From: Cafeteria roenbergensis
Lineage: Eukaryota > Sar > Bigyra > Bicosoecida > Cafeteriaceae
Reading direction: 5' to 3'
Assembly (NCBI GenBank): GCA_008330645.1
Contig: VLTN01000001.1
Coordinates: forward strand, 930,001 to 994,000
DNA: 64,000 nucleotides
A program made the translations under genes and the position numbers. Below, piece after piece: positions 33,097-64,000 of this stretch. Position 1 is the stretch's first letter, and the number at the start of each line of letters is the position of its first letter. The notes under the pieces were generated by a model, which saw only the letters and a program-made list of their open reading frames with translations, was not told the origin of the DNA and ran no database searches.

Positions 33097-33571
33097 TCTC
33101 GGCGCGTGGCTGCTGCCCGGCTTGCTGCGCGGCCCTCACAGCCACAGCCACCTGCAGGCGGCAAGGTTGCTGCCTCGTGCAAGCTGCCCGGCACTTGAGA
33201 GTCGTGAGGGCGCAAAGGCCACGCACACGAAGCGCAGGCTCGAGTGCCGCAGTTGTGGCCCCATTTGAGCACCCACATCCGCAGGTATTTACGGCAACTG
33301 AGTTCTTGGGCGCTGAACCGCAACCCGTTGCAGGGGCGGGGAAAAATATACTGTTCGGGCAAACACACAGCGCGGGCATTCGGCAGCACCCAAGCAGCCG
33401 AGAGAACTCCGCGAACCAAGGCGCCCAAGCCGAGCCCCCCCCCCCCTCCCCGAACGTGGCAGGCAGCAGAGTGGGGGAGGTGCTTCGGCGCCAGCTTGGG
33501 CGTGCCGCCGCGCCGCGACGGACCGCAAAACCGCTCAATTCCAGCTGCGCGCGTACTCATTGGTTTCGCAA
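33097..33571. promoter_or_regulatory. divergent promoter region with one TATA-like patch
   Basis: 475 bases lie between the start codons of the tuberin-like gene (minus) and the ankyrin/TRAF-finger gene (plus). An A/T patch, GAAAAATATA at 33341-33350, directly follows a GC-box-like GGGGCGGGG and stands out in this base composition. It is 220 to 250 bases from either start, so which gene it serves is unclear. A C-rich run lies near 33438-33450. Confidence 0.4.
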
Positions 33572-36500
33572 ATGGCTGAGCCCCCTGCCCCAGACCGAGC
33601 GGTTCCTGTGCAAGGCCCCCACCATCGCGTGTTAATTCCGCCGGACCTGTGCTTGGAGGAAACCATCGACGCGCTGCAGGCGAGCTTGAGCGAAGCGCGA
33701 GTTGCCAACAGCCCGGAACAAGTGCCCCTTCGGCGCCTAGTTCCCAAAGCAGGAGGGCACTGGCGGCGATGCCTCGGCGCTGGTGAGCTGCTGCGAGCCG
33801 TGGCATCCAGGGACGAGGTCGTCCTTCGCTGCGTGCTTGGAGGGAGCGCGGACTCGCCGCGCTTGCCGGTGCCGCCCGCCCCCATCTTCGAGCTCCTGCG
33901 GACCGACGACAGGGGCAGGTGCGCTCTGGACTGGGCAAGGCTCATGGGTTGGTCAGAGGCCGTTGGCCTGTTGACGGAGGCGATGCAGAAAGCGCTGGCG
34001 GCCTGCCAAGAGCAAGCAGCCGAAGAGCAGGGCCTACTGCGTGCGGCCGAGCTCGTCCGGGCCAATTTACAGCTGTCGTCGGCCTTGCAGGCAGCGTGTG
34101 GCAATTCCCTGGACGACGAGTGGGCAGAAGCAACGCTGGCCACCTTGGAGCGCGCTGCGCGGTCAGGCGTCAGCGCGGCCGAGCTGGCTGAGGCGCAACA
34201 GCGACTGCGGCGTGCCGGCCCGGAGGCTGCAGCTTCGGCTTTGCGACGGTGTGCCACAGGCAGGCCGCTGACGCCCGACCCGTCTGCGGAGGAAACGGAC
34301 GGCGATATTGGAGTCAGCAGCCAGCACTTTGTCCATGCCTCAAACCGCTGGGTCGGTCAGTCCCCGCTCGACAGGGCTGCAGCTTGTGGGCGAGCTGATG
34401 TTGCGGAGGCGCTCCTCCTCGCGGGAGCCATCGCTTCAGAGCCAGGCCAAGACGGCCGGCTGCCCCTCGTCACGGCCTGCGCCAGTGGCCACCTTGTGGT
34501 GTGCAGGCTCCTCGTCAAGCACGGAGCCAACCCATTCCAAGCGGACCCAGCATCAGGGCAGACGCCGCTGATGCACGCCACCAAGGCAGGACGAGAAGAT
34601 GTGACCCAGTGGCTTCTTGGGCTTGCGAGGGACTCGGCACTGCAGCCATCGCGGGGCATTGCGCACAGAATCCCGCACCCGTTCGCAAGGCCCACGCACT
34701 GGGGCGAGGCCGTGCTTGAGGCCTTGGACACTGCCGACGACGGCGGGTTGACGTGCCTCGACTTTGCGACGCGAGAAGCGCATGGGTCGCGCTGCGCCGA
34801 GCTGGTCCGGCGACATCACTCCCAGGCTGCTCGCGCGGTTGAGGCCTGGCGGCGACGGCAGCATGGCTCGCGTTGGCACACGTGCCCACGTTGTGGCGAT
34901 CGCGTATTAAACCAAGATGCCAAGCGGCACGCCGAGCAGCTGTGTGTTCTTCGGCCCCATGCGACTCCCAGAAGGCGCCCAGCCGGCGTCGAGGGGATGC
35001 TACCCCCGTTGGCGTCGCTTGTGCAGCCCCATCAACTCCACGCCGTGGTAAGCAGGCTCCGGCCGGAAGCGTATCACCGGCCAGTTGCTGCGGTATCGGC
35101 AGGCGACGGTGCCGGAGCCACGGGGGCCGGTCGCGAAGCGTCCGTGGCGGACGCTGGAACCTCAGGGCCCCCAACGGTGAGGTTGCCTGGCAGCTACGGC
35201 GCACTCGCCAAGACCCTTGCCGCACGAGCAGCCACGCTGAACTCCGGAGTGGAATCGCAAAGCCAGCAGCCTCCCCAGGCAGTGCCAGCGAAGCCGCGGT
35301 CACTTCGGCTCTTTGCATCGCTGGAGCCTTCTGGCCCCGACTTCTTCGTTTCGCCTGACTCGTCCGCAATGGCTTCTCGGCGGCAAGGGGCTTTGCGTGG
35401 AGCTTCCGCACCCCTGTCTCACGTGCGCTCTGAGGCCATGCCTGAGGCCAGTTCCTGTCCAAGGTCAATCCAACAAGAGAATGCCATCCGAGCAGATGAC
35501 GCAAGTCCTGCCAAGAGAGGTGGTACTTCGGCTTCGGAGTTCGCCATCGACTGTCCGCTCGGCTGCGGTCACGCGCTGCCCAATCCCGAGGCTGCCGACT
35601 TTCACGCATCACGACGTTGTGATTTGCGCCTCATTTCCTGCTCCCTTGGCTGTGGACAGTTTATTCAGGCTCGAGACGTCATCCTGCATGAGAGCCACGA
35701 GTGCCCTGAACGGTCCTTGCGGTGCTCGTGCGGCGCCATGGTCAGGCTCAAGCTTCGGCCGCTTCATCTGGCGGAAAAGTGCCCGCGGCGATCCGTCCTG
35801 TGCCCAGATCACTGCGGCGTCAGGATTGAGGCGCGTCACTTGGAGTCTCACCGTGCCGAGAGCTGCCAGCAAGCGCTGGTCGACTGCCCGCTCGGCTGCG
35901 GAAACAGAGTGCCAAGGCGGAGCATCGACAGCCACGTGGAGAGCACGTGCCCTCGTCGCAACGTGGCCTGTCCTTTCGGCTGCGGGCAAGCAGCGGAAGC
36001 CAGCCTCATCGGAGTCCACGCTCGGTTGTGTCCGAAGCGGCACGTGAGGTGCCGTTTTGGGTGTGGCGAGACCGACATTGCGGCTTGCGAAATGCAGGAG
36101 CACGAAGCCTTGTGCGAGTGCAGGCCGGTTCATTGCCCGAGGGGGTGCGGTTTTACCGCAGTTCCGGTGTTTCCGCGGTCTGCCACCGAGATCATGGAGA
36201 CGCATATCCAGGAGAGCTGCCCGAGGCGCCTGGTCCCCTGTAGCCGCGGGTGCGGGCAGTCCATCGCAGCAGCAAGCATGGAGGTCCATGAGCAGACTGA
36301 GTGCGCGATGCGAATCCAGCCCTGCCCTCGAGGCTGCGGAGCGAGTGTGCATGCATCCGCCCTCAGGTTTCACTCCGCCGTGTGTGACTTCAGGGCCTTG
36401 GACTGCGAGTTTCAGTGTGCCTCCTGCCAGCGCCGGCTTCGCTCGTGGCTGCTTGGCCCCTACGGCAACGCCCGCATGCAACTTTGTCCGCTCCATGGAA

Positions 36501-39415
36501 GCTCGCCCTTGCATTGCGCGGCGGCCAAGGGTGACTTGGACCTGCTCGCCCTCCTGGTCAGATTCGTGCGCGATGCGGAACTGGAGGTGGTGAACATGCA
36601 GGGGCTGACCCCCTTGGCGTTGGCTTGCCGGAAAGGACAGCCCGGTGCTGTCCGGATGCTTCTAGCCGCGGGAGCAGACGCGCTGACAGAGTCGCCGCGC
36701 GGCATCACACCTCTTGCATGCGCCGTCGAGGGGTCCGACGTGGACTGCGCAAGGCTCTTGCTGGAGGCTGGGGCCAGTCCGCTGACTCCCAATTCGCGGG
36801 GCTTGAGCGCAGCGGGGTTGGCGGAGCGGCTTGGGCGCGGCGGCCTGGTCCAAGCCTTCAACGTTCACTCACGGGTGCGTGTCAACCTTGCAGCGATGCA
36901 CCGCGCGGTGCTGCGGCGCGATGCGCTTGGCCTCGGGCTTCTGCTCGGGGACCTGCGCAGCCGACGGCGGGCCCGCGAGGTGCAAGAAGCGCCCCAGGCA
37001 ACTGCAGTGGAGGGCCCCGCGGAGAATGTGCCCTCCGTGCCGCCAGCAGCAGTGCTGAAACGGGAAGAAGGAGGCCAGTCTCGATTCGTTCCGGTTTGGC
37101 GCCTGGAGCGCGAAGCAGAGGCTGCCCGTGACGGCTTGGAGACTGCCACCCGAGATGCGTGCAGAAGTATCGCGGCGCTGGCGGTGTTTCACCAGACGTC
37201 TCGTGCCAGCGGCGTCACAGCCGAGCGCGCAGAGGCCTGCTCTCGCCCCGCTGCGGGCTCACGGGCAAGCAGCATGGCGCATCTCCACTTGGCTCAGCCG
37301 ATTGGCGGGGAGCGAGTCCACTCTCGGCTCCGAGACGAGCGGAACATGCGCGTGCTGGAGCAGGCCGTGGCGGAGCGGACTCGGCTCCGAATGAAGGCCT
37401 CGAGATGCCTGGAGACTGCGGAGCAACGCGAGTTTGGAGCAAGGATTCTTCGCGAAAGGACTCCGTTGCGACACACGTTGTTGAGCTTCGCGTCAGCTTG
37501 TGGGGCCATGGATTGCATGCGTTTGCTCTTGCAAATGGGGGCTTCGCCAGAGTTCGACGAGAGGGTGTGGCACGCTGCTGCATCCGTGATCCAGACTGCG
37601 TGGCGAGCAACCTCCGCGGCAAGGCTTGCGGCAGAGGCGTGGATGCCGCCACCGCGCGCGCGAGTCGTACGGTTTCGTGCGCTGTTTGCGGGGAAGCAAG
37701 CTCTTCGAATCGCCAGCTTGCAGCTCCGCAGAGAGCTTCGGGAGGCCAGGCTGCCGCTTCACGAGGCGGCATTTGCTGGACGCCCTGCAGCAGTGCAGCT
37801 TCTCCTCGAAGCAGGAGCTCAGCCGTGGCGCCGCTGCCAAGCGCTCCCCGAGCCCCCGCCCCCCATGGCGATGCCTCGCCAACTCGTGATGCCAGCGCCC
37901 GCCGCAGGCAGCGGCGGGCAGACACGACAGGCCGAGGACGTGCTGGTGCGAGTTCCGCGCCTGCGCTCGGACGGACGCATCAGACCAGAGGACGACGTCC
38001 ACGGCTGGAGGGACAAAGTGGTTGTGCCACAGCTTGACTTTGGCTCGCTGTCGCTCTCTTCGTTTGAGAGCTCGCCCTGGGCTAGCTGTCACGACGCAAG
38101 CGACTCTCGAAGCAGTGCGCTGCCGTCGCACCAGGCGCACGAGGAGGCAGCTGTCGCTGCGTCGGCGCCAAGCGGGACGGGGCTCGTGACAAAAGCCATG
38201 CAGGATGGGAAGGTCGGGTGCGTCACGCTGCCAAGAGCAATGTTCATTGCAGAAACAGCCGCGCTGGGGTACGCCAGGCTTGGGCATCGAACGTTCGTGT
38301 ACGGGGACGGCTGGGACAGGCTGGACGGACACATGGCAGCAATCGGGAAGGCCCTCGAGGCTTTACGGCACCACACTCTGTCGCGACGGCGAGCAGCCGA
38401 AGCCTGCCGGCTGGCGAGGAACCGACGCGAGCGGGTCGCAGAGCTTCGTCGGCTGCGCGCGGTCTTCTCGGTTGCAATCGATACCAGCGACGCCGACAGC
38501 GTCCTGGCTTGCTTGAAACAGGGGCTCCCGGCGGAAACGACGGACGCCGACTCCGGGCACAATGCTCTCACCATGGCTGCTGCGCAGGGCTGCTCCGTGG
38601 TCTCGCCAGCGTCAAACACACGCCGGCTGCTCGTTGACGTCATCTTGGAAGAGTTCGCGACAGATCCGCTTGGCCTCCTGAATCACCAGGCACCCAACGG
38701 CTTGACCCCGTTAATGGCAGCAGCAGCCAGAGGGCAAGACTCCGCGCTGGTTGCTCTGCTGAGGCGGCGGCCAGGCTTGAACGCTGTCGCGTCGTGCCGA
38801 CCCCCTCGGGAAGGTGTTGATCAGCTTGACCGGGCCGCTCCGGGGTGGGGCCTTCCCTGGCGCTTGGTGACGGGGGCGACGGCTCTTCACGCCGCCGCTC
38901 GCTTCGGTAGCTCTGGGTGCGTGCGCCTTCTCCAAATCGCTGGTGCAAACTCGGCTGCTCGCACCGACGCTGGGGACACGCCAGCAGATCTGGCGCGGCG
39001 ACACGGTCATTCTGCAACTGCAGAGGTGCTGCGGGCTGCAGAGACCGGAACCGCCGTGAATGAGACCTCAAGGCTGCTCGCCCATGGGCCGGCAGCCGTG
39101 TCTCCGTGCGAATGGGGATGCGGAGCTCGGTTCACCGCCGCTGAGGCCTCGCACCACGACAGGGAATGCCCCCGGCGCATAGTTCCGTGCCCTCTTGGTT
39201 GCGAGGAGGCTGGAATCTTCGCATGCGAAGTGGTGGAGCATTGCAAGACCGCCTGCCCCCGGAGGCGTGCTCGTTGTCCATTTGGCTGCCCCGAGGTTAT
39301 CCCAGGCAGTCAATTCGAGTCGCACTTGCTGCAGTGCCCCAGGCGCCGCGGCGCGAAGCACGTCCCCAGCACAGGCGGATCCTCTCGCCCACGTGCGCTT
39401 GAAGGGTTGGGGTAA
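33572..39415 (+). CDS. ankyrin-repeat / TRAF-type zinc-finger protein with IQ-like motif
   Basis: 1947 residues in one exon; the ATG at 33572 is the first in frame. Ankyrin repeats occur in several blocks: about residues 265-350 (LPLVTACASGHLVVCRLL), 970-1100 (GLTPLALACRKGQPGAVRML; ITPLACAVEGSDVDCARLL), one near 1320 and one near 1395, and 1640-1825 (GLTPLMAAAARGQDSALVAL; ATALHAAARFGSSGCVRLL). At about 660-960 lie ten Cys/His modules of the CPxGCG...H...C form, as in TRAF-type zinc fingers, and three more close the protein (about 1845-1925). A CxxC...H...C finger precedes the first block (near residue 435). VIQTAWRATSAARL near residue 1335 resembles an IQ motif. The protein is probably a cytosolic scaffold; the partner is unknown. 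I see no RING, MATH, kinase or membrane segment. Confidence 0.85.
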   Translation: MAEPPAPDRAVPVQGPHHRVLIPPDLCLEETIDALQASLSEARVANSPEQVPLRRLVPKAGGHWRRCLGAGELLRAVASRDEVVLRCVLGGSADSPRLPVPPAPIFELLRTDDRGRCALDWARLMGWSEAVGLLTEAMQKALAACQEQAAEEQGLLRAAELVRANLQLSSALQAACGNSLDDEWAEATLATLERAARSGVSAAELAEAQQRLRRAGPEAAASALRRCATGRPLTPDPSAEETDGDIGVSSQHFVHASNRWVGQSPLDRAAACGRADVAEALLLAGAIASEPGQDGRLPLVTACASGHLVVCRLLVKHGANPFQADPASGQTPLMHATKAGREDVTQWLLGLARDSALQPSRGIAHRIPHPFARPTHWGEAVLEALDTADDGGLTCLDFATREAHGSRCAELVRRHHSQAARAVEAWRRRQHGSRWHTCPRCGDRVLNQDAKRHAEQLCVLRPHATPRRRPAGVEGMLPPLASLVQPHQLHAVVSRLRPEAYHRPVAAVSAGDGAGATGAGREASVADAGTSGPPTVRLPGSYGALAKTLAARAATLNSGVESQSQQPPQAVPAKPRSLRLFASLEPSGPDFFVSPDSSAMASRRQGALRGASAPLSHVRSEAMPEASSCPRSIQQENAIRADDASPAKRGGTSASEFAIDCPLGCGHALPNPEAADFHASRRCDLRLISCSLGCGQFIQARDVILHESHECPERSLRCSCGAMVRLKLRPLHLAEKCPRRSVLCPDHCGVRIEARHLESHRAESCQQALVDCPLGCGNRVPRRSIDSHVESTCPRRNVACPFGCGQAAEASLIGVHARLCPKRHVRCRFGCGETDIAACEMQEHEALCECRPVHCPRGCGFTAVPVFPRSATEIMETHIQESCPRRLVPCSRGCGQSIAAASMEVHEQTECAMRIQPCPRGCGASVHASALRFHSAVCDFRALDCEFQCASCQRRLRSWLLGPYGNARMQLCPLHGSSPLHCAAAKGDLDLLALLVRFVRDAELEVVNMQGLTPLALACRKGQPGAVRMLLAAGADALTESPRGITPLACAVEGSDVDCARLLLEAGASPLTPNSRGLSAAGLAERLGRGGLVQAFNVHSRVRVNLAAMHRAVLRRDALGLGLLLGDLRSRRRAREVQEAPQATAVEGPAENVPSVPPAAVLKREEGGQSRFVPVWRLEREAEAARDGLETATRDACRSIAALAVFHQTSRASGVTAERAEACSRPAAGSRASSMAHLHLAQPIGGERVHSRLRDERNMRVLEQAVAERTRLRMKASRCLETAEQREFGARILRERTPLRHTLLSFASACGAMDCMRLLLQMGASPEFDERVWHAAASVIQTAWRATSAARLAAEAWMPPPRARVVRFRALFAGKQALRIASLQLRRELREARLPLHEAAFAGRPAAVQLLLEAGAQPWRRCQALPEPPPPMAMPRQLVMPAPAAGSGGQTRQAEDVLVRVPRLRSDGRIRPEDDVHGWRDKVVVPQLDFGSLSLSSFESSPWASCHDASDSRSSALPSHQAHEEAAVAASAPSGTGLVTKAMQDGKVGCVTLPRAMFIAETAALGYARLGHRTFVYGDGWDRLDGHMAAIGKALEALRHHTLSRRRAAEACRLARNRRERVAELRRLRAVFSVAIDTSDADSVLACLKQGLPAETTDADSGHNALTMAAAQGCSVVSPASNTRRLLVDVILEEFATDPLGLLNHQAPNGLTPLMAAAARGQDSALVALLRRRPGLNAVASCRPPREGVDQLDRAAPGWGLPWRLVTGATALHAAARFGSSGCVRLLQIAGANSAARTDAGDTPADLARRHGHSATAEVLRAAETGTAVNETSRLLAHGPAAVSPCEWGCGARFTAAEASHHDRECPRRIVPCPLGCEEAGIFACEVVEHCKTACPRRRARCPFGCPEVIPGSQFESHLLQCPRRRGAKHVPSTGGSSRPRALEGLG

Positions 39416-45114: not shown

Positions 45115-48100
45115 TCACACACGCACGTCCAGGCCAGTCGGCGCAATGCTTGCCGTGTGCACGGTCCACTGCAGGGTCTCCGTTCGCGGGTCTGCCTTGA
45201 GCACTTGGCGGAGGTGGGCCAGCGAAACGTCTGGGCGCTTCACGGCCACTAAGAAGCCGCCACCGCCGGCCCCGCAAAGGCTTGACCCGTGGACGAAGGG
45301 CCGCATGACCTCCCGCAGCTTGGCGACTCGCTCGGGCTCTGCGTCGGGGGCCATGAGCTTCTTCTGCTCCCAGTACGTTTCAAGGCAGCGGCCAACCTGA
45401 GCGGCGTCCTTGTCCGCGAGCGCACGCGCCATGGCCACGGCGTTGAGCCGAAGCGCGGCCACCGTGGAAGTCACCCCGTTCTCGCGAAGCGCCCATTGCC
45501 GGAGCACGCGCTGGAGCAGGTTCTTGGCGAGGCGGGAGATCCCTGTGTACATCACGAAGAGGTGGCCGTCCAAGAAGGATGCCAGCTCTGAGCGCGCGCC
45601 TCCGGTGGCGGCGCTCTCGGCGCCGTCGTCCAGCGAGAAGGCCTCCACGCGAACAGGCAGCCCTGGGGCGCACACGGACGCCTGGACGCCACCGTAGAGG
45701 CCGCCCACCTGGTCCTGGTAGCCGCCCCCTGTTGAAAGCAGCTGCTCCAGCGTGAGCACCAGGTGCGTGAGGGAGGCGTTGGAGAACCGGACGCCGGCGC
45801 ACCTCGAAACTGCAGCCAGCACCGCTGCGGCGAGGATGCTGCTCACGCCCAGGCCAGAGCCCTGCGGCAGCTGGCTCCACGTTTCCACCTCGAGGCCGCC
45901 GCCACCGAAGCAGGCCCGCAGCTGGGCCTCCAGCGCCCCCTCGCTGTCTTCAGTGGCGACCCTGCCGTCGCAGTCGAGAAGCTCGCCTTCGGCCCGCCCC
46001 GGAATCTCGAGCACGCCCAGGCACAGCAGCGCGCTCTTGACCAGCGCGCCCCTGGCAGTAGGCTTGAAGTAGTCAGCAACGTCGCACAGTCTGACGCACC
46101 TCACCTCGCTCAGCACGAAGCCGGGGATGCCGCTCGCCGAGGCGTCCGAGTCCTCGAGCAGCCCAGAGGCAGGCGCGCCGCGAAACGCTGCGGTTGCCTC
46201 GTCCGGCCTTGAAGCCGAGCGCGTGCGAATCACAATGTGAGGCTCAGCGCACCTGCGCGCGCGGGCACCGACGGATTTCTTTCCGTCGACGAGCACCCCG
46301 GCGTTGATAACCAGCCCGCCGCCACGGCTGGCGAAGGAGGCGACCTTGGCCGCAACCGAGGTTCCTGCCGCCGCAGCGCAAGACGCAGCGTCAAGGCCCG
46401 CGGTGGCCGTGCCAGCGCCGCGGTCGACCGGCCCTGCCTCGAAGTGGATCGGCGGGGTGTCGCTCCAGCCGCCTGCGAGGTCCACGCGCGCAGGGCACAC
46501 CGCCGTGGCCCACTTGCCCACCGGCAAGGGCGCCGCTCCGGGCACGGCCTCTGCCAGCGGGCCGCGCCGGGGGCGCGCGCCCGACTTGCAGTCGTCCGCG
46601 GCCGGGAGAGTGCCAGCGGCGGCGCCGTCCGCGCCCAGGGCCAGCGGCCTGCCGATGGGGGCCGTGTATACGCACTGCGCAGTGAGGAGCTGAGCTGCGC
46701 GCTCCAGGTGGCGGGCAGCGCGGCCAATCAAGTGGCTCCCGGTCAGCCATGAGTCTCGCACTGCAGCCAGCTGCCGAATGGCGCGGCGTCGTGCAGAGAC
46801 TGCAGAAAGCCCGGACGACTTGGTGGCGCGCCCAGCGATGCCGCCGCATGCCTGGTGCTGTGGGGAGCGACCGGTGCCCCCCGACTGACCGGGCTGCAGG
46901 CCCTCGAGCAGCGCAAGCGGCTCCGCAAAGTCGGGGTGGGCGGCTGGCCCAGAGCGCTGCGCGCTGCCCCCCCATCCCGCCACGGCCCACAGCAGAGCGG
47001 ACTGGATGGCGACCGCTCGCGCCGCAACGTCCAATGCGCGCCCCTTGGCAAGCCGGTCCAGGCCCCACAGCGCCCGGTGAACGAGCTCCAGCCCTGCCGC
47101 AGCGCCGGGGGCAGCTGCCCCTCCTCCCTCGCAGCTCCCCAGACGAGAGAGCAGGACGGAGAGCGCGGCGTCCGACCGCCGGCGCACCGCCTCCACCACC
47201 AGCCGCGCGTCCACCTCCCCGCGCAGCCGCCGCCGCCACGCAAACTCTGCGCGAGCGTCGGCCCTGGCCAGGAGGTCCTTCAAGCTCAAGCGCTCAGACG
47301 CGCGCCAGCGGGCGATCGCTGCGGGGCTCGCGGCCTCGCAGTCGCCCCACCGCCCTGCACCAGCGGCTGCGACGTCTTGCAGCCAGAGCGAGGCGGCGTC
47401 CACTTCGGGCATCTCCGCCCTCGCAGCCGGAGTCGCCAGCGCGGAGGGCAGCGGCGCGGTCGGCGACATGACGTCATCGCCGGAGCAACGGCCCACCCCG
47501 TGGCTGGGCCGGTCGACAGGGAAGAGCCGCGCAGTCCACAGCGTGCGGGCCGCCTCAGGGACGTGCGCCGGCCAGACGTCCGCCTCTTCGACGCCCGCTG
47601 CTCGCATGAACTCGTCCCAGCCGACGCCGCAGACCCTGGCGCCAGCGTCGCGCCACTGCTTTTTGATCGGGTCGTCCACATGCAGCACGCTGATCACGCG
47701 CAGCTCCGCCTCCACGAGCGGCGCATGTTGCGGTGACGCGAGGGCACGCTCCACGGAGCTCCGGCCCGTGACTCCATCCCCCGAGGCGGGCTGGCTGCCA
47801 GCACGTGCGCGCGGGGCAGAAATCCTTGGCGCAAGCGAGCGCCCCCCAGCGGCGGCGGCAGCTGCGGCGCCGAGCGCGGCAGCAACGGGAGACTCAAACG
47901 GCTCCCCGGACCCGCGGCTCGCTCCGTCGTCGTCCGCGTCCCCGTCAAGCGCCGCCTCCTCTTCCGCCTCCTCCTCTTCATCTTCACGGGCGTAGACATC
48001 GTCCAGCGGCGCCCAGTCGGCAGGCTCGGCCACGAATGACTCCTGCACGGCAAAGCCCGGCCGGAGCCGAAGGTGCTCCACGGTCCTGACACCGCTTGCG

Positions 48101-49569
48101 ATGGCCCCCGCCCCAAGGCTCCAGTCGCCTCTGAGCACGCAGTGCTCCGCAAAGGCACCGTCCCCTCGCTCGCCAGCAGACTCGAACACGCTGTTCAGGC
48201 TGCACATGCCGCCGAGCGGAGCGGCTTCCCCTGCCGAGGACTTGCTTCCCCCGCTGCTGACGCTGGTCATGCTGCGCGCGGAGGATCTGTCGAAGCAGGC
48301 TGCCCAGCGACGCAGCCCCAGCGCCGCGGTGGGAGGCGCGGGCTCGGTCAGGAGCGATCGATACTCCGGAGTGGTACCCACGTGGAGGAACGTGCCGCCC
48401 TGGGCCACAGCCGCAAAGAGCGGCATCGGGCTCAGGTCGCGCCACAGCAGCCCGCGTGCTGCCGCGATGCGGTCGGGATTGAGGTCGGCGGTGTCCATGT
48501 CGCGGAACTGGGCGAACGTCTGCCCGAGCCCCCCCGACATGGCCAGGAGCAGGTCCGAGTACAGCTCCACGCGCAGCGGGCGGGTGGCCGTGTCTACTCC
48601 CAGGTACGTGCAAGAGAGCACGGGTGCCGTCTGCGCGAGCTCAAGCAGGGTGCTCGTCGCTGGGGGCGAGAAATAGATGACCCCCGAGTCCAGCAGGACC
48701 TCGCCAGCAGGGCTGACGGCACCGGCGGCCGCAAGCTCGTCCACGGTCGCCTTCTGGAAGAAGCGCTCCACTGGCACGTGCATCGAGGCGGCGCCGTCTC
48801 CGGGCAGAGCGGCGACATGGTACACCCCGTGATTCGGGCCCAGGGCCTTGGGAGACGGAATGGCCAGGCCGGTCGCTCCCTCCTGGGGCCAGTCAACACG
48901 GAAGCTCTCTGGGATCAACAACAGCACGTCCGAGGACGCGACGACCACTCCGGCCTTCACGCCCCGGAACAGCGTGGTGAGCGTCTCAATCAGCAGGTCC
49001 ACTGGGGCCTGCAGCTCCAACCGGTCAGAGAACACGGGCAAGGCGCTCCACGCCTTGCCACAGACGCTCTGGAGCGGCAGCCGCTGGGAGTCCCCTCCCG
49101 AGTGGATCAGCAGCACCAGGCAGCTCTCGAAATCACAGTCCGCCCTGCAGCAAACAAAGCAAGCGCTCCCGACGCGCAGCTCAAGGCGCGAGATGGGATG
49201 CCATGCCGCTGGGGGAAGAAGAATCAAGCGCAAGCCCCACATGGCGCAAAAACCAGAGCCCGCGGGGCGCTTCGCCGCGGTTTGCCGGGGGCTGGCGCGA
49301 CGCGTCTCGCGGATTGCAACTCACTGCTTCCCGACGAGCTCCTGAGCCGTGATGAGGGCGTTGAATGTCGCCCCACCGGACCCCACCCTGGCGCTGGACG
49401 GGTCTGGGCACGCGAACAGCAGCGTAGGGGTGTCGTCGAAGCACCCAGCCGAAGCCCGCGCGCGCAACTCCCCCTCGACCGCTTGTGATTGCCGCTCCGT
49501 GCTGCATGTCACGATGACCACGCGACGGATCGCGCCTGCTACCCTGGACCGGACAGGAAGCCCGCTCAT
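45115..49569 (-). CDS. FKP: bifunctional L-fucokinase / GDP-L-fucose pyrophosphorylase
   Basis: Phosphorylates L-fucose and couples the product to GTP to make GDP-L-fucose for glycosylation. Two exons, 49325-49569 and 45115-49144, join K-Q-A-D in phase 2 (donor GTGAGT, acceptor TGCTGCAG), giving 1424 residues. Exon 1 carries the conserved PDPSSARVGSGGATFNALI; exon 2 opens with LLIHSGGDSQRLPLQSVCGK, the pyrophosphorylase nucleotide-binding motif. The C-terminal half is a GHMP kinase: PARVDLAGGWSDTPPIHFE, the ATP loop LPQGSGLGVSS, and GAGGGGFLVAVKRP near the end. Plant FKP is about 1055 residues; the excess is mostly a Glu/Asp- and Ala-rich linker (about 47800-48000) and Ala-rich spacers. Starting at the ATG at 49569 gives a compact N-terminus; the frame is open further upstream, so an earlier start is possible. 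Confidence 0.93.
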
Positions 49570-53554: not shown

Positions 53555-53892
53555 CTACCTTTTGGACGAAAACAGAGACGGCCCTCCTCGGGCGTCCAAC
53601 GGCGGGGCGGAAAGCGGTGGCGACGCCGGCGGCTGGCGACGCCACCGCGGCGATCGCTCACCTCCGGCGCCTGTGTGGCTCCAAGGCTCAGGAATGTGGG
53701 CGCCGGACAGCCGAGGTGACGCGCTCTCGGCTGCAAGTCGCAGTGCGACAGCTGCACGAAAGCGAGCCTCGCTCGTCTGAGCCTCGGAACGGGCCAGCGC
53801 CCGGCGAGCCGCCTGGCGGGAGCGAGCAGCAATCTGGCGGGAGAGCTCCAGCGCTGCGTCGGCATCGCCCCGAGCAGTGTTGCTGCTGCTGG

Positions 53893-53926
<34 letters not shown>

Positions 53927-56900
53927 ACGAATGCTGCCCGAGGCCGCGACAGCTGCGCCCGACCTGAGGTCCTCAGCTTGCGAGAAACGATGCAGTCCTG
54001 CCCGCCCATCGTCCTGGTGCTCCCGACTTGGCATGTCAGCGGAGGGGCGGCCACCAAGCTGATGACGGACAGCTGAGTCCGCAACGGTGCGACCAGCTGA
54101 GTCGGTGACTGTAAAGTCCAGGCGCCGACGGACCTTGCCGGTGGACGGCGGCGCTCGCAGGGCGGCCCCCGGCTGCGGCGTAGCGGTCAGCGGCGCAAGT
54201 CGGGCAGGCAGAGACGCGGGGGCTTGGAGCCCCTTGAGGCGCAAAAATGCGCTCTTCATCCTGCGACGCGCGCTGGACTGAGCTGCTTGAAGCAGCGCGT
54301 CGGCGACAGCGAAGCGCTGAGCGGTCCGCAGGCACGGCGCTGGTGCAGCGCGCGCCTGAATGGAGCAAGCCGATCGGCGGACGCGCTCGAGCGCTTGCTC
54401 CGCCCGGAGCGCGACAGCCTCAGCACGGCCAAGGCGCTCCTGAAACACGGAGTCGGACGCCGCCTTCCATTTCCGGAACGCCTCTTCGACCGAAATGGGC
54501 GACTCCAGGCGAGCATTGAGCGCCGAGAATGCCCGGTCAGCGTTGGCAAGTCCAGCTCCAAGATGCGCAGGAACAGGGGCCGAGCGGCGGGGCGACGCTT
54601 GCCGATGCTTTTGAACCCAAGAGGAGTCTCGACGAAGGTTTCGCCGGCGTCCGAAACGACCGGCCGGCGAAGCCCGCGCCCAACGGCTGAAAGCCCCCCG
54701 AAGCTCCTGCAAACCTCGTGCACGAAGAATCGGTAAAAGGCACCGGAGCGCACGGCGCGCCCGCGCCCGCACCGACACGTGCGACCGCCACGCCGACCAC
54801 GCCGCCCGCGCCGACCGATCCGACCGAGACCGCGACAGACGACGCAGCGCCGCCTCGCGCGCCGCCTCCGCCCGCGCCTCCGCCCGCGACACCGCCGCAG
54901 CCGCGCGGGCGTCCGCCGCAGCCGCGCCCGCCCCGGCCTCCGCCTCCGCCCGCTCCCGGGCCCGATCCGCCGCGCTCCACGCCCGCCACCGGCCCAGCGC
55001 ATCGCGCAGCGACCCCTCACGGCCCCGCGACATCACCGACCGGAGCGCATGGCGCGCCCGCGCCCGCACCGACACGTGCGACCGCCACGCCGACCACGCC
55101 GCCCGCGCCGACCGATCCGACCGAGACCGCGACAGACGACGCAGCGCCGCCTCGCGCGCCGCCTCCGCCCGCGCCTCCGCCCGCGACACCGCCGCAGCCG
55201 CGCGGGCGTCCGCCGCAGCCGCGCCCGCCCCGGCCTCCGCCTCCGCCCGCTCCCGGGCCCGATCCGCCGCGCTCCACGCCCGCCACCGGCCCAGCGCATC
55301 GCGCAACGACCCCTCACGGCCCCGCGACATCACCGACCGGAGCGCACGGCGCGCCCGCGCCCGCACCGACACGTGCGACCGCCACGCCGACCACGCCGCC
55401 CGCGCCGACCGATCCGACCGAGACCGCGACAGACGACGCAGCGCCGCCTCGCGCGCCGCCTCCGCCCGCGACACCGCCGCAGCCGCGCGGGCGTCCGCCG
55501 CAGCCGCGCCCGCCCCGGCCTCCGCCTCCGCCCGCTCCCGGGCCCGATCCGCCGCGCTCCACGCCCGCCACCGGCCCAGCGCATCGCGCAGCGACCCCTC
55601 ACGGCCCCGCGACATCACCGACCGGAGCGCACGGCGCGCCCGCGCCCGCACCGACACGTGCGACCGCCACGCCGACCACGCCGCCCGCGCCGACCGATCC
55701 GACCGAGACCGCGACAGACGACGCAGCGCCGCCTCGCGCGCCGCCTCCGCCCGCGCCTTCGCGCGCAACACCGCCGCAGCCGCGAGGGCGTCCGCCGCAG
55801 CCGCGCCCGCCCCGGCCTCCGCCTCCGCCCGCTCCCGGGCCCGATCCGCCGCGCTCCACGCCCGCCACCGGCCCAGCGCATCGCGCAACGACCCCTCACG
55901 GCCCCGCGACATCGCCGACCGGAGCGCACGGCGCGCCCGCGCCCGCACCGACACGTGCGACCGCCACGCCGACCACGCCGCCCGCGCCGACCGATCCGAC
56001 CGAGACCGCGACAGACGACGCAGCGCCGCCTCGCGCGCCGCCTCCGCCCGCGCCTCCGCCCGCGACACCGCCGCAGCCGCGCGGGCGTCCGCCGCAGCCG
56101 CGCCCGCCCCGGCCTCCGCCTCCGCCCGCTCCCGGGCCCGATCCGCCGCGCTCCACGCCCGCCACCGGCCCAGCGCATCGCGCAGCGACCCCTCACGGCC
56201 CCGCGACATCACCGACCGGAGCGCACGGCGCGCCCGCCCCCGCACCGACACGTGCGACCGCCACGCCGACCACGCCGCCCGCGCCGACCGATCCGACCGA
56301 GACCGCGACAGACGACGCAGCGCCGCCTCGCGCGCCGCCTCCGCCCGCGCCTCTGCCCGCGACACCGCCGCAGCCGCGCGGGCGTCCGCCGCAGCCGCGC
56401 CCGCCCCGGCCTCCGCCTCCGCCCGCTCCCGGGCCCGATCCGCCGCGCTCCACGCCCGCCACCGGCCAGCGCATCGCGCAACGACCCCTCACGGCCCCGC
56501 GACATCACCGACCGGAGCGCACGGCGCGCCCGCGCCCGCACCGACACGTGCGACCGCCACGCCGACCACGCCGCCCGCGCCGACCGATCCGACCGAGACC
56601 GCGACAGACGACGCAGCGCCGCCTCGCGCGCCGCCTCCGCCCGCGCCTCCGCCCGCGACACCGCCGCAGCCGCGCGGGCGTCCGCCGCAGCCGCGCCCGC
56701 CCCGGCCTCCGCCTCCGCCCGCTCCCGGGCCCGATCCGCCGCGCTCCACGCCCGCCACCGGCCCAGCGCATCGCGCAACGACCCCTCACGGCCCCGCGAC
56801 ATCACCGACCGGAGCGCACGGCGCGCCCGCGCCCGCACCGACACGTGCGACCGCCACGCCGACCACGCCGCCCGCGCCGACCGATCCGACCGAGACCGCG

Positions 56901-59900
56901 ACAGACGACGCAGCGCCGCCTCGCGCGCCGCCTCCGCCCGCGCCTCCGCCCGCGACACCGCCGCAGCCGCGCGGGCGTCCGCCGCAGCCGCGCCCGCCCC
57001 GGCCTCCGCCTCCGCCCGCTCCCGGGCCCGATCCGCCGCGCTCCACGCCCGCCACCGGCCCAGCGCATCGCGCAACGACCCCTCACGGCCCCGCGACATC
57101 ACCGACCGGAGCGCACGGCGCGCCCGCGCCCGCACCGACACGTGCGACCGCCACGCCGACCACGCCGCCCGCGCCGACCGATCCGACCGAGACCGCGACA
57201 GACGACGCAGCGCCGCTCGCGCGCCGCTCCGCCCCGCCTCCGCCCGCGACACCGCCGCAGCCGCGCGGGCGTCCGCCGCAGCCGCGCCCGCCCCGGCCTC
57301 CGCCTCCGCCCGCTCCCGGGCCCGATCCGCCGCGCTCCACGCCCGCCACCGGCCCAGCGCATCGCGCAGCGACCCCTCACGGCCCCGCGACATCACCGAC
57401 CGGAGCGCACGGCGCGCCCGCGCCCGCACCGACACGTGCGACCGCCACGCCGACCACGCCGCCCGCGCCGACCGATCCGACCGAGACCGCGACAGACGAC
57501 GCAGCGCCGCCTCGCGCGCCGCCTCCGCCCGCGCCTCCGCGCGCGACACCGCCGCAGCCGCGCGGGCGTCCGCCGCAGCCGCGCCCGCCCCGGCCTCCGC
57601 CTCCGCCCGCTCCCGGGCCCGATCCGCCGCGCTCCACGCCCGCCACCGGCCCAGCGCATCGCGCAACGACCCCTCACGGCCCCGCGACATCACCGACCGG
57701 AGCGCACGGCGCGCCCGCGCCCGCACCGACACGTGCGACCGCCACGCCGACCACGCCGCCCGCGCCGACCGATCCGACCGAGACCGCGACAGACGACGCA
57801 GCGCCGCCTCGCGCGCCGCCTCCGCCCGCGCCTTCGCGCGCAACACCGCCGCAGCCGCGAGGGCGTCCGCCGCAGCCGCGCCCGCCCCGGCCTCCGCCTC
57901 CGCCCGCTCCCGGGCCCGATCCGCCGCGCTCCACGCCCGCCACCGGCCCAGCGCATCGCGCAACGACCCCTCACGGCCCCGCGACATCACCGACCGGAGC
58001 GCACGGCGCGCCCGCGCCCGCACCGACACGTGCGACCGCCACGCCGACCACGCCGCCCGCGCCGACCGATCCGACCGAGACCGCGACAGACGACGCAGCG
58101 CCGCCTCGCGCGCCGCCTCCGCCCGCGCCTCCGCCCGCGACACCGCCGCAGCCGCGCGGGCGTCCGCCGCAGCCGCGCCCGCCCCGGCCTCCGCCTCCGC
58201 CCGCTCCCGGGCCCGATCCGCCGCGCTCCACGCCCGCCACCGGCCCAGCGCATCGCGCAGCGACCCCTCACGGCCCCCGCGACATCACCGACCGGAGCGC
58301 ACGGCGCGCCCGCGCCCGCACCGACACGTGCGACCGCCACGCCGACCACGCCGCCCGCGCCGACCGATCCGACCGAGACCGCGACAGACGACGCAGCGCC
58401 GCCTCGCGCGCCGCCTCCGCCCGCGCCTCCGCCCGCGACACCGCCGCAGCCGCGCGGGCGTCCGCCGCAGCCGCGCCCGCCCCGGCCTCCGCCTCCGCCC
58501 GCTCCCGGGCCCGATCCGCCGCGCTCCACGCCCGCCACCGGCCCAGCGCATCGCGCAACGACCCCTCACGGCCCCGCGACATCACCGACCGGAGCGCACG
58601 GCGCGCCCGCGCCCGCACCGACACGTGCGACCGCCACGCCGACCACGCCGCCCGCGCCGACCGATCCGACCGAGACCGCGACAGACGACGCAGCGCCGCC
58701 TCGCGCGCCGCCTCCGCCCGCGCCTCCGCCCGCGACACCGCCGCAGCCGCGCGGGCGTCCGCCGCAGCCGCGCCCGCCCCGGCCTCCGCCTCCGCCCGCT
58801 CCCGGGCCCGATCCGCCGCGCTCCACGCCCGCCACCGGCCCAGCGCATCGCGCAACGACCCCTCACGGCCCCGCGACATCACCGACCGGAGCGCACGGCG
58901 CGCCCGCGCCCGCACCGACACGTGCGACCGCCACGCCGACCACGCCGCCCGCGCCGACCGATCCGACCGAGACCGCGACAGACGACGCAGCGCCGCCTCG
59001 CGCGCCGCCTCCGCCCGCGACACCGCCGCAGCCGCGCGGGCGTCCGCCGCAGCCGCGCCCGCCCCGGCCTCCGCCTCCGCCCGCTCCCGGGCCCGATCCG
59101 CCGCGCTCCACGCCCGCCACCGGCCCAGCGCATCGCGCAGCGACCCCTCACGGCCCCGCGACATCACCGACCGGAGCGCACGGCGCGCCCGCGCCCGCAC
59201 CGACACGTGCGACCGCCACGCCGACCACGCCGCCCGCGCCGACCGATCCGACCGAGACCGCGACAGACGACGCAGCGCCGCCTCGCGCGCCGCCTCCGCC
59301 CGCGCCTCCGCCCGCGACACCGCCGCAGCCGCGCGGGCGTCCGCCGCAGCCGCGCCCGCCCCGGCCTCCGCCTCCGCCCGCTCCCGGGCCCGATCCGCCG
59401 CGCTCCACGCCCGCCACCGGCCCAGCGCATCGCGCAACGACCCCTCACGGCCCCGCGACATCACCGACCGGAGCGCACGGCGCGCCCGCCCCCGCACCGA
59501 CACGTGCGACCGCCACGCCGACCACGCCGCCCGCGCCGACCGATCCGACCGAGACCGCGACAGACGACGCAGCGCCGCCTCGCGCGCCGCCTCCGCCCGC
59601 GCCTCCGCGCGCGACACCGCCGCAGCCGCGCGGGCGTCCGCCGCAGCCGCGCCCGCCCCGGCCTCCGCCTCCGCCCGCCCCCGGCCCGATCCGCCGCGCT
59701 CCACGCCTGCCACCGGCCCAGCGCATCGCGCAACGACCCCTCACGGCCCCGCGACATCACCGACCGGAGCGCACGGCGCGCCCGCGCCCGCACCGACACG
59801 TGCGACCGCCACGCCGACCACGCCGCCCGCGCCGACCGATCCGACCGAGACCGCGACAGACGACGCAGCGCCGCCTCGCGCGCCGCCTCCGCCCGCGCCT

Positions 59901-62900
59901 CCGCCCGCGACACCGCCGCAGCCGCGCGGGCGTCCGCCGCAGCCGCGCCCGCCCCGGCCTCCGCCTCCGCCCGCTCCCGGGCCCGATCCGCCGCGCTCCA
60001 CGCCCGCCACCGGCCCAGCGCATCGCGCAACGACCCCTCACGGCCCCGCGACATCACCGACCGGAGCGCACGGCGCGCCCGCGCCCGCACCGACACGTGC
60101 GACCGCCACGCCGACCACGCCGCCCGCGCCCGACCGATCCGACCGAGACCGCGACAGACGACGCAGCGCCGCCTCGCGCGCCGCCTCCGCCCGCGCCTCC
60201 GCCCGCGACACCGCCGCAGCCGCGCGGGCGTCCGCCGCAGCCGCGCCCGCCCCGGCCTCCGCCTCCGCCCGCTCCCGGCCCGATCCGCCGCGCTCCACGC
60301 CCGCCACCGGCCCAGCGCATCGCGCAACGACCCCTCGCGGCCCCGCGACATCACCGACCGGAGCGCACGGCGCGCCCGCCCCCGCACCGACACGTGCGAC
60401 CGCCACGCCGACCACGCCGCCCGCGCCGACCGATCCGACCGAGACCGCGACAGACGACGCAGCGCCGCCTCGCGCGCCGCCTCCGCCCGCGCCTCCGCGC
60501 GCGACACCGCCGCAGCCGCGCGCGGGCGTCCGCCGCAGCCGCGCCCGCCCCGGCCTCCGCCTCCGCCCGCTCCCGGGCCCGATCCGCCGCGCTCCACGCC
60601 CGCCACCGGCCCAGCGCATCGCGCAACGACCCCTCACGGCCCCGCGACATCACCGACCGGAGCGCACGGCGCGCCCGCGCCCGCACCGACACGTGCGACC
60701 GCCACGCCGACCACGCCGCCCGCGCCGACCGATCCGACCGAGACCGCGACAGACGACGCAGCGCCGCCTCGCGCGCCGCCTCCGCCCGCGCCTCCGCCCG
60801 CGACACCGCCGCAGCCGCGCGGGCGTCCGCCGCAGCCGCGCCCGCCCCGGCCTCCGCCTCCGCCCGCTCCCGGGCCCGATCCGCCGCGCTCCACGCCCGC
60901 CACCGGCCCAGCGCATCGCGCAGCGACCCCTCACGGCCCCGCGACATCACCGACCGGAGCGCACGGCGCGCCCGCGCCCGCACCGACACGTGCGACCGCC
61001 ACGCCGACCACGCCGCCCGCGCCGACCGATCCGACCGAGACCGCGACAGACGACGCAGCGCCGCCTCGCGCGCCGCCTCCGCCCGCGCCTCCGCCCGCGA
61101 CACCGCCGCAGCCGCGCGGGCGTCCGCCGCAGCCGCGCCCGCCCCGGCCTCCGCCTCCGCCCGCTCCCGGCCCGATCCGCCGCGCTCCACGCCCGCCACC
61201 GGCCCAGCGCATCGCGCAGCGACCCCTCACGGCCCCGCCACATCACCGACCGGAGCGCACGGCGCGCCCGCGCCCGCACCGACACGTGCGACCGCCACGC
61301 CCACCACGCCGCCCGCGCCGCCCGATCCGACCGAGACCGCGACAGACGACGCAGCGCCGCCTCGCGCGCCGCCTCCGCCCGCGCCTCGCCGCAACACCGC
61401 CGCAGCCGCGAGGGCGTCCGCCGCAGCCGCGCCCGCCCCGGCCTCCGCCTCCGCACGCTCCCGGGCCCGATCCGCCGCGCGACACGCCCGCCACCGGCCG
61501 AGCGCATCGCGCAGCGACCCCTCACGGCCCCGCGACATCACCGACCGGAGCGCACGGCGCGCCCGCGCCCGCACCGACACGTGCGCCCGCGCCGACCGAT
61601 CCGACCGAGACCGCGACAGACGACGCAGCGCCGCCTCGCGCGCCGCCTCCGCCCGCGCCTCCGCGCGCGACACCGCCGCAGCCGCGCGGGCGTCCGCCGC
61701 AGCCGCGCCCGCCCCGGCCTCCGCCTCCGCCCGCTCCCGGGCCCGATCCGCCGCGCTCCACGCCCGCCACCGGCCCAGCGCATCGCGCAGCGACCCCTCA
61801 CGGCCCCGCGACATCACCGACCGGAGCGCACGGCGCGCCCGCGCCCGCACCGACACGTGCGACCGCCACGCCGACCACGCCGCCCGCGCCGACCGATCCG
61901 ACCGAGACCGCGACAGACGACGCAGCGCCGCCTCGCGCGCCGCCTCCGCCCGCGCCTCCGCCCGCGACACCGCCGCAGCCGCGCGGGCGTCCGCCGCAGC
62001 CGCGCCCGCCCCGGCCTCCGCCTCCGCCCGCTCCCGGGCCCGATCCGCCGCGCTCCACGCCCGCCACCGGCCCAGCGCGTCGCGCAACGACCCCTCACGG
62101 CCCCGCGACATCACCGACCGGAGCGCACGGCGCGCCCGCCCCCGCACCGACACGTGCGACCGCCACGCCGACCACGCCGCCCGCGCCGACCGATCCGACC
62201 GAGACCGCGACAGACGACGCAGCGCCGCCTCGCGCGCCGCCTCCGCCCGCGCCTCCGCCCGCGACACCGCCGCAGCCGCGCGGGCGTCCGCCGCAGCCGC
62301 GCCCGCCCCGGCCTCCGCCTCCGCCCGCTCCCGGGCCCGATCCGCCGCGCTCCACGCCCGCCACCGGCCCAGCGCATCGCGCAACGACCCCTCACGGCCC
62401 CGCGACATCACCGACCGGAGCGCACGGCGCGCCCGCCCCCGCACCGACACGTGCGACCGCCACGCCGACCACGCCGCCCGCGCCGACCGATCCGACCGAG
62501 ACCGCGACAGACGACGCAGCGCCGCCTCGCGCGCCGCCTCCGCCCGCGACACCGCCGCAGCCGCGCGGGCGTCCGCCGCAGCCGCGCCCGCCCCGGCCTC
62601 CGCCTCCGCCCGCTCCCGGGCCCGATCCGCCGCGCTCCACGCCCGCCACCGGCCCAGCGCATCGCGCAACGACCCCTCACGGCCCCGCGACATCACCGAC
62701 CGGAGCGCACGGCGCGCCCGCGCCCGCACCGACACGTGCGACCGCCACGCCGACCACGCCGCCCGCGCCGACCGATCCGACCGAGACCGCGACAGACGAC
62801 GCAGCGCCGCCTCGCGCGCCGCCTCCGCCCGCGCCTCCGCCCGCGACACCGCCGCAGCCGCGCGGGCGTCCGCCGCAGCCGCGCCCGCCCCGGCCTCCGC

Positions 62901-64000
62901 CTCCGCCCGCTCCCGGGCCCGATCCGCCGCGCTCCACGCCCGCCACCGGCCCAGCGCATCGCGCAACGACCCCTCACGGCCCCGCGACATCACCGACCGG
63001 AGCGCACGGCGCGCCCGCGCCCGCACCGACACGTGCGACCGCCACGCCGACCACGCCGCCCGCGCCGACCGATCCGACCGAGACCGCGACAGACGACGCA
63101 GCGCCGCCTCGCGCGCCGCCTCCGCCCGCGCCTCCGCCCGCGACACCGCCGCAGCCGCGCGGGCGTCCGCCGCAGCCGCGCCCGCCCCGGCCTCCGCCTC
63201 CGCCCGCTCCCGGGCCCGATCCGCCGCGCTCCACGCCCGCCACCGGCCCAGCGCATCGCGCAACGACCCCTCACGGCCCCGCGACATCACCGACCGGAGC
63301 GCACGGCGCGCCCGCGCCCGCACCGACACGTGCGACCGCCACGCCGACCACGCCGCCCGCGCCGACCGATCCGACCGAGACCGCGACAGACGACGCAGCG
63401 CCGCCTCGCGCGCCGCCTCCGCCCGCGCCTCCGCCCGCGACACCGCCGCAGCCGCGCGGGCGTCCGCCGCAGCCGCGCCCGCCCCGGCCTCCGCCTCCGC
63501 CCGCTCCCGGGCCCGATCCGCCGCGCTCCACGCCCGCCACCGGCCCAGCGCATCGCGCAACGACCGCCTCACGGCCCCGCGACATCACCGACCGGAGCGC
63601 ACGGCGCGCACGCGCCCGCACCGACACGTGCGACCGCCACGCCGACCACGCCGCCCGCGCCGACCGATCCGACCGAGACCGCGACAGACGACGCAGCGCC
63701 GCCTCGCGCGCCGCCTCCGCCCGCGCCTCCGCCCGCGACACCGCCGCAGCCGCGCGGGCGTCCGCCGCAGCCGCGCCCGCCCCGGCCTCCGCCTCCGCCC
63801 GCTCCCGGGCCCGATCCGCCGCGCTCCACGCCCGCCACCGGCCCAGCGCATCGCGCAACGACCCCTCACGGCCCCGCGACATCACCGACCGGAGCGCACG
63901 GCGCGCCCGCCCCCGCACCGACACGTGCGACCGCCACGCCGACCACGCCGCCCGCGCCGACCGATCCGACCGAGACCGCGACAGACGACGCAGCGCCGCC
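53555..64000 (-). CDS. Sfi1-like centrin-binding repeat protein, C-terminal part (5' end beyond the window)
   Basis: Stop at 53555; the start lies beyond the right edge. The C-terminal 395 residues are unique, with two Trp motifs (AFSRWARAS, AFRKWKAASDS) and a poly-Ser run. Upstream the protein is a 99-residue unit repeated about 31 times. Each unit has two helical Trp motifs, LRDALGRWRAW and ARAAWSAWRSHV, separated by Ala/Arg/Glu helix. The form A/L-x2-A/F-x2-W-R/K and the near-33-residue register (99 is three times 33; motif gaps 63 and 36) resemble Sfi1 repeats, which bind centrin on long filaments at the spindle pole body or basal body. That function is inferred. As given, the frame is broken by nine indels within the array (about 56466, 58275, 59684, 60127, 60276, 60520, 61170, 61390, 63563), so the gene is either pseudogenised in part or mis-assembled. 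The frame is consistent between indels. Confidence 0.65.
53881..53927 (-). repeat. CTG trinucleotide run encoding poly-Ser
   Basis: A nearly pure CTG run on the plus strand. The minus strand reads AGC, giving about a dozen Ser residues in the unique C-terminal part of the Sfi1-like protein. Confidence 0.85.
54740..64000 (-). repeat. tandem array of ~31 units of 297 bases, continuing past the right edge
   Basis: Units begin (plus-strand view) at a shared CCCCGCGACATC and recur near 55021, 55318, 55615, 55901, 56198 and so on to 63873. Most are exactly 297 bases and nearly identical. Length variants are three 285-base units (about 55314-55599, 58863-59148, 62392-62677) lacking 12 bases, one of 294 (57083-57377), one of about 276 (61522-61798) and several with 1-2 base indels. 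The array encodes the body of the Sfi1-like protein. The consensus unit has no stop codon in any plus-strand frame and none in the coding minus frame. There are no spacers, terminal inverted repeats or mobile-element genes. Confidence 0.97.

Follow-up and report, generated by a model that had tools for sequence, protein, structure and literature searches.

A homogenised array of 99-residue units with paired Sfi1-type tryptophan motifs in Cafeteria roenbergensis, a candidate giant centrin scaffold

The window analysed here is a stretch of 64,000 nucleotides from the genome of Cafeteria roenbergensis (contig VLTN01000001.1, positions 930,001 to 994,000), with a GC content of 71.6 per cent. Several long open reading frames (ORFs) lie in it. 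One of 3,187 aa carries a CLU domain and TPRs. Another is uninterrupted over 4,897 aa on the minus strand (18403-33096); a Pfam scan with a limit of E 1 gives it a single match, a Rap/Ran-GAP domain near the C-terminal end. A 1,951-aa ORF (33560-39415) contains many ankyrin repeats together with TRAF-type zinc fingers, and the ORF at 45115-49242, with fucose pyrophosphorylase and GHMP kinase domains, looks like a bifunctional fucokinase/GDP-fucose pyrophosphorylase. The right end of the window is occupied by a tandem array of a 297-bp unit, the subject of this report (Table 1).

Table 1. Features of the array and its C-terminal flank (window positions; u, unit of the array)
Feature	Position	Strand	Basis
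297-bp (99-residue) unit array	54742..64000, on to 65414 window-equivalent	-	TRF, k-mer extent, unit cutting
u08 and u09, clean consecutive units, query for genome search and structure model	62739..63332	-	
u10, 12-bp in-frame spacer deletion	62454..62738	-	
u13 to u20, 7 of 13 small indels, and u13 21-bp in-frame deletion removing the second motif	59507..61859	-	
u22, same 12-bp deletion as u10	58925..59209	-	
u34, same 12-bp deletion as u10	55376..55660	-	
Non-repeat C-terminal region, diverged Trp motifs AFSRW and AFRKWK, stop codon at low end 53555	53555..54741	-	Translation, motif listing

Within the window, Tandem Repeats Finder (TRF) reports a single array of period 297 with 31.4 copies and 97 per cent matches. 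The initial annotation had counted about 31 near-identical units running off the right edge, and both points are borne out: in the next 20 kb of the contig, the k-mer extent and TRF place the right end some 1.4 kb past the window edge. Cut at a conserved anchor, the whole array yields 37 anchors and 36 full 297-bp units, a number that is the assembly's count only.

The units are highly homogeneous. Ten of the 36 equal the consensus exactly, pairwise identity averages 0.979 with a minimum of 0.886, and 50 of the 630 pairs are identical. Several variants are common to non-adjacent units (T70C in 13 units, C17G and G195C in six each), and u10, u22 and u34, whose first bases are 62738, 59209 and 55660, have all lost the same 12 bp of the spacer, in frame. 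The 12-unit lag has p 0.004 when taken alone and p 0.127 over all 24 lags tried, and is only a hint of a 12-unit higher-order repeat made of duplicated blocks of about 3.5 kb. Since the variants are found in non-adjacent units, the pattern fits exchange of units over distance. The initial annotation had attributed the homogeneity to recent expansion or continuing gene conversion, and these variants uphold that view in part.

The genome (36,303,456 bases in 167 contigs) was searched for related sequences. At the DNA level, 25 matches to the unit lie elsewhere, with 68-90 per cent identity over 40-171 bp, and mainly cover the Ala-rich middle of the unit. A protein search with two units gave 33 matches, all of them inside the array, and the sole match of the N-terminal Trp region was to itself. 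The array is thus the single such locus found in the genome.

The coding strand of the array, left unstated in the initial annotation, is the minus strand, as the open unit frame and the flanks both indicate. On this strand the unit consensus has one open frame, each of the two others holding a stop, and the open frame continues on both sides of the array into non-repeat sequence, N-terminal and C-terminal, where diverged copies of the unit's Trp motif occur. It is open from 68022, with the first ATG at 67923, and 837 residues precede the first anchored unit. This N-terminal stretch is long and rich in Ala, Glu, Arg and Gln before the diverged Trp motifs begin; judged by eye, a part of about 550 residues looks like a coiled coil. 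Plus-strand ORFs of 3,094 and 3,074 aa also reach the window edge unbroken, which could be taken to mean that a Pro/Ala-rich protein is coded on that strand or that the array is non-coding satellite DNA. We consider either highly improbable: open frames are cheap at 72 per cent GC, and only the minus frame joins flanks with the same Trp motif. Codon-position GC lends weak support to the minus frame. Among the three minus frames position 2 is the GC-poorest in the coding frame alone, as it is in the two flanks and in the CLU and Rap-GAP genes nearby, although the ranking of the other two positions differs (3>1 in the array, 1>3 in the flanks). The plus frame exactly antisense to the coding frame would presumably also show position 2 lowest, and is compatible with this result.

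As a minimal motif for centrin binding, [FLW]XXW[KR] has been published (PMC10180636). The consensus unit contains it twice, at W31 (LGRWR) and W97 (WSAWR), as anticipated by the initial annotation, which had recognised two Trp motifs of Sfi1 type per unit. When each unit is read from its own start, both motifs are present in 28 of 36 and the first in 32. Those without the full pair are the frame-shifted u07, u14, u15, u17, u20, u25 and u31, together with u13, from which a 21-bp deletion has removed the second motif. Shuffled units are expected to hold 0.08 motifs, and at least two occurred in 0.2 per cent of 5,000 shuffles; in about 14,500 residues from seven further ORFs of the window the motif occurs once. 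Four more copies are found in the flanks of the array. A statistic on the flank Trp residues, independent of the array, points the same way: six of 15 combine [FLW] at -3 with a large hydrophobic residue at -7, against 0.65 in shuffles, a value reached in one of 5,000.

Within the array the spacing of the motifs is regular. In five frame-intact stretches, which cover 26 of the 36 units, the distance between motif Trp residues alternates between 33 and 66; in-frame spacer deletions change the longer distance to 62 or 65, and the 33 step is constant throughout. The relation 99 = 3 x 33, which had been noted earlier, therefore stands in these stretches, with the middle position vacant: it is Ala-rich, with Ser in place of Trp. 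As this middle step of 33 residues has no Trp motif, the array is gapped. When the unit is rotated against itself, an offset of 33 residues has the top similarity score of 49 offsets, a weak result in that 78 of 1,000 shuffles match this self-similarity when offsets of 8-49 are allowed. In the flanks the spacing is irregular, with 30 and 82 residues before the array and 107 after it.

A longer Sfi1 consensus, Ax7LLx3F/Lx2WK/R, has been published (PMC5112337, in the form quoted there), and the unit agrees with it in part. The first motif has V instead of A at -16 and S instead of L at -8, with L at both -7 and -3 ahead of W and R; the second has L at -16, S at -8, A at -7, W at -3, W and R. One of the two consecutive L positions is thus matched in the first motif and neither in the second.

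The initial annotation had proposed an HMM search against the Sfi1 profile and had named the lack of a match beforehand as refuting its reading; none was found for the unit, the flanks or the genome. With Pfam at E up to 10, neither two clean units nor the two flanks match Sfi1, and the Sfi1 model PF08457 has no match over the whole genome. The lack of a Sfi1 match is a weak negative, because PF08457 is silent in all 14 control genomes as well, and because a published Sfi1-like protein was named from its motif counts, without sequence homology (PMC10180636). In the PDB, phmmer with an array piece and with the N-terminal part found one and two hits respectively (best E 0.68), none of them Sfi1. 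A profile built from 12 motif segments gave 13 hits there (best E 0.004); most are designed armadillo proteins, and none is named Sfi1. One array piece matches DUF7295 (27.3 bits against a curated cut-off of 27, E 4.9e-06), with no stretch passing singly; we put this match down to composition since the family is unlisted for two clean units at E up to 10. With neither a Sfi1 profile nor a solved Sfi1 chain matching, what likens the protein to Sfi1 is its motif, its register and its predicted helix. We consequently do not file the protein as a proven member of the Sfi1 family; most likely, it works like one.

The predicted helix comes from AlphaFold2 run on single sequences. Two units are modelled as mostly helical (pLDDT 75.2), with helices at 21-83 and 88-98 and their repeats; for the flank with one unit the confidence is low (pLDDT 51.7). 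Ala makes up 32 per cent of the unit and Arg 24 per cent. This composition, the lack of a Sfi1 profile match and the one-third of the register without a motif would also suit a helical cytoskeletal rod rich in Ala and Arg that binds no centrin, its Trp pairs packing helices together or binding another partner such as calmodulin. We regard such a rod as decidedly unlikely, given that two copies of the published minimal motif stand in a unit, in a 33-residue register, with diverged forms in the flanks, and that an IQ pattern, [FILV]Q...[RK]G...[RK], is absent from the unit searched.

The reading frame, as assembled, is broken. We counted 13 small indels of one or two bases, spread over nine of the 36 units, and in seven of these the unit length is not divisible by 3. 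Translation from the first ATG consequently stops at about 63274, after some 1,550 codons, so that the protein of more than 3000 residues foreseen in the initial annotation does not exist in the sequence as assembled. By our reading, ten of the 13 indels change the length of a G or C run, which is the type of error made in raw PacBio reads. In the other three, u07 has gained a C, u17 has gained CG and u28 has lost a C. Of the 13, seven cluster in u13 to u20, a cluster picked after inspection. By contrast, no break occurs in about 41 kb comprising the flanks on either side and five long ORFs nearby, though these were chosen for openness and the contrast with the array is accordingly overstated. 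The published assembly of C. roenbergensis BVI is described as made from raw PacBio RS II reads with Canu and polished with Racon, the last polishing being done with Illumina reads of 2 x 300 bases (PMC6972860). If ours is that assembly, reads of this length could not be placed in identical 297-bp units, and for this reason we judge most of the breaks to be probably sequencing errors. An intact protein would then have about 4,800 residues.

Real decay of the gene, however, also finds some indications in the data. A C is lost at unit position 119 in the nearby units u15, u18 and u20, as if inherited, and the shared substitutions are without an excess of synonymous changes (three of eight, against 31 per cent expected). 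If the 13 indels are real, the array would be a decaying or broken expansion and the protein at most a shorter one, ending within the first seven units. Weighing this against the nature of most indels and the probable history of the assembly, we think it rather unlikely that the gene is decaying. In an assembly of this kind, caution is due with gene models over 297-bp units so alike, as such models will be broken into fragments.

Taken together, the motifs, their register and the predicted helix suggest that the gene codes for a gapped, giant Sfi1-like centrin scaffold, a reading whose probability we would put at roughly 0.6. The product would be a very long and mostly helical protein with a Sfi1-like role, in which the coiled-coil-like N-terminal part of about 550 residues and the regions of diverged motifs flank the homogenised array. 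Candidate centrin sites would be paired 33 residues apart across the boundary of two units, from W97 to the next W31, each pair being followed by a 66-residue Ala/Arg-rich spacer whose middle register position is without Trp. With the frame intact, about 36 units would supply some 70 sites along a straight helix of about 0.5 micrometre, computed at 0.15 nm per residue. Centrins might decorate this helix, and Ca2+ binding might stiffen, bundle or shorten it; for Sfi1 fibres decorated with centrin, coiling and shortening at high calcium have been proposed (PMC6070942). The units themselves may have spread via unequal exchange or conversion.

Candidate partners are at hand. Of the 65 EF-hand matches in the genome, at least three are centrin-like genes, with better scores against solved centrins than against calmodulins. 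The flagellar transport gene IFT46 was also found, so the organism is a flagellate. No chlorophyll a/b-binding family was found in the genome and no RuBisCO large subunit in the assembly, outside which a plastid sequence may lie. We suppose that the fibre would be tied to basal bodies or flagellar roots. In a related bicosoecid a striated fibre is described between the basal bodies, as are four flagellar roots (PMC6723347); by inference only, these structures are a possible home for the protein.

Giant centrin scaffolds are already known in ciliates, where the best known examples belong to fast-contracting species. Protist myonemes are reported to contain giant scaffolds with hundreds of centrin or spasmin sites (PMC12661445), and the Paramecium lattice to involve PtCenBP1 and centrin (PMC6189993, PMC5483020). 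The initial annotation had set the homogeneous array against the diverged repeats of known Sfi1 proteins. This contrast overlooks the ciliate scaffolds with their hundreds of sites (PMC12661445). The Cafeteria protein would resemble PtCenBP1 of Paramecium and the giant spasmin-binding proteins of Spirostomum, as these are described, in its great length and many tandem sites (PMC12661445, PMC6189993, PMC5483020), and differ from them in its stramenopile origin and in lacking every third site of the register. With yeast and vertebrate Sfi1 it shares a Trp motif and a 33-residue step, here predicted to be helical (PMC5112337, as presented there), and it departs from them in its near-identical units, many more sites, gapped register and lack of a profile match. 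A precedent for its recognition is PfSlp of Plasmodium, a Sfi1-like protein reported to have been identified from the number of its [FLW]XXW[KR] motifs although its sequence is not homologous to Sfi1 (PMC10180636); the motif is likewise present here, and no Sfi1 profile match was found. For PfSlp there are interaction and localisation data, whereas the Cafeteria gene is known from its sequence and has regular motifs in near-identical units. In the literature searched, outside which most subscription journals lie, no similar protein is reported from a bicosoecid. A homogenised and gapped form in a small heterotrophic flagellate would be a variant of the ciliate scaffolds and would suggest that such fibres arise elsewhere too.

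It is tempting to go further and imagine a Ca2+-responsive stramenopile fibre in which a 99-residue unit undergoes continual homogenisation and its copy number, variable among strains or alleles, fixes both the length of the fibre and how many centrin pairs it bears, with the pairs held apart on bare helical spacers. We regard this as speculative and, on balance, unlikely. If true, it would represent a genetically extensible centrin ruler outside ciliates. Four sequenced Cafeteria strains are reported to lie within 99 per cent nucleotide identity (PMC6972860), which makes unit numbers directly comparable between them and the ruler idea of the initial annotation testable.

Elsewhere in the window, a perfect tract of the hexanucleotide GCTGGT (7711-7844; 22.3 copies, 100 per cent matches) lies near the start of the ORF with the CLU domain.
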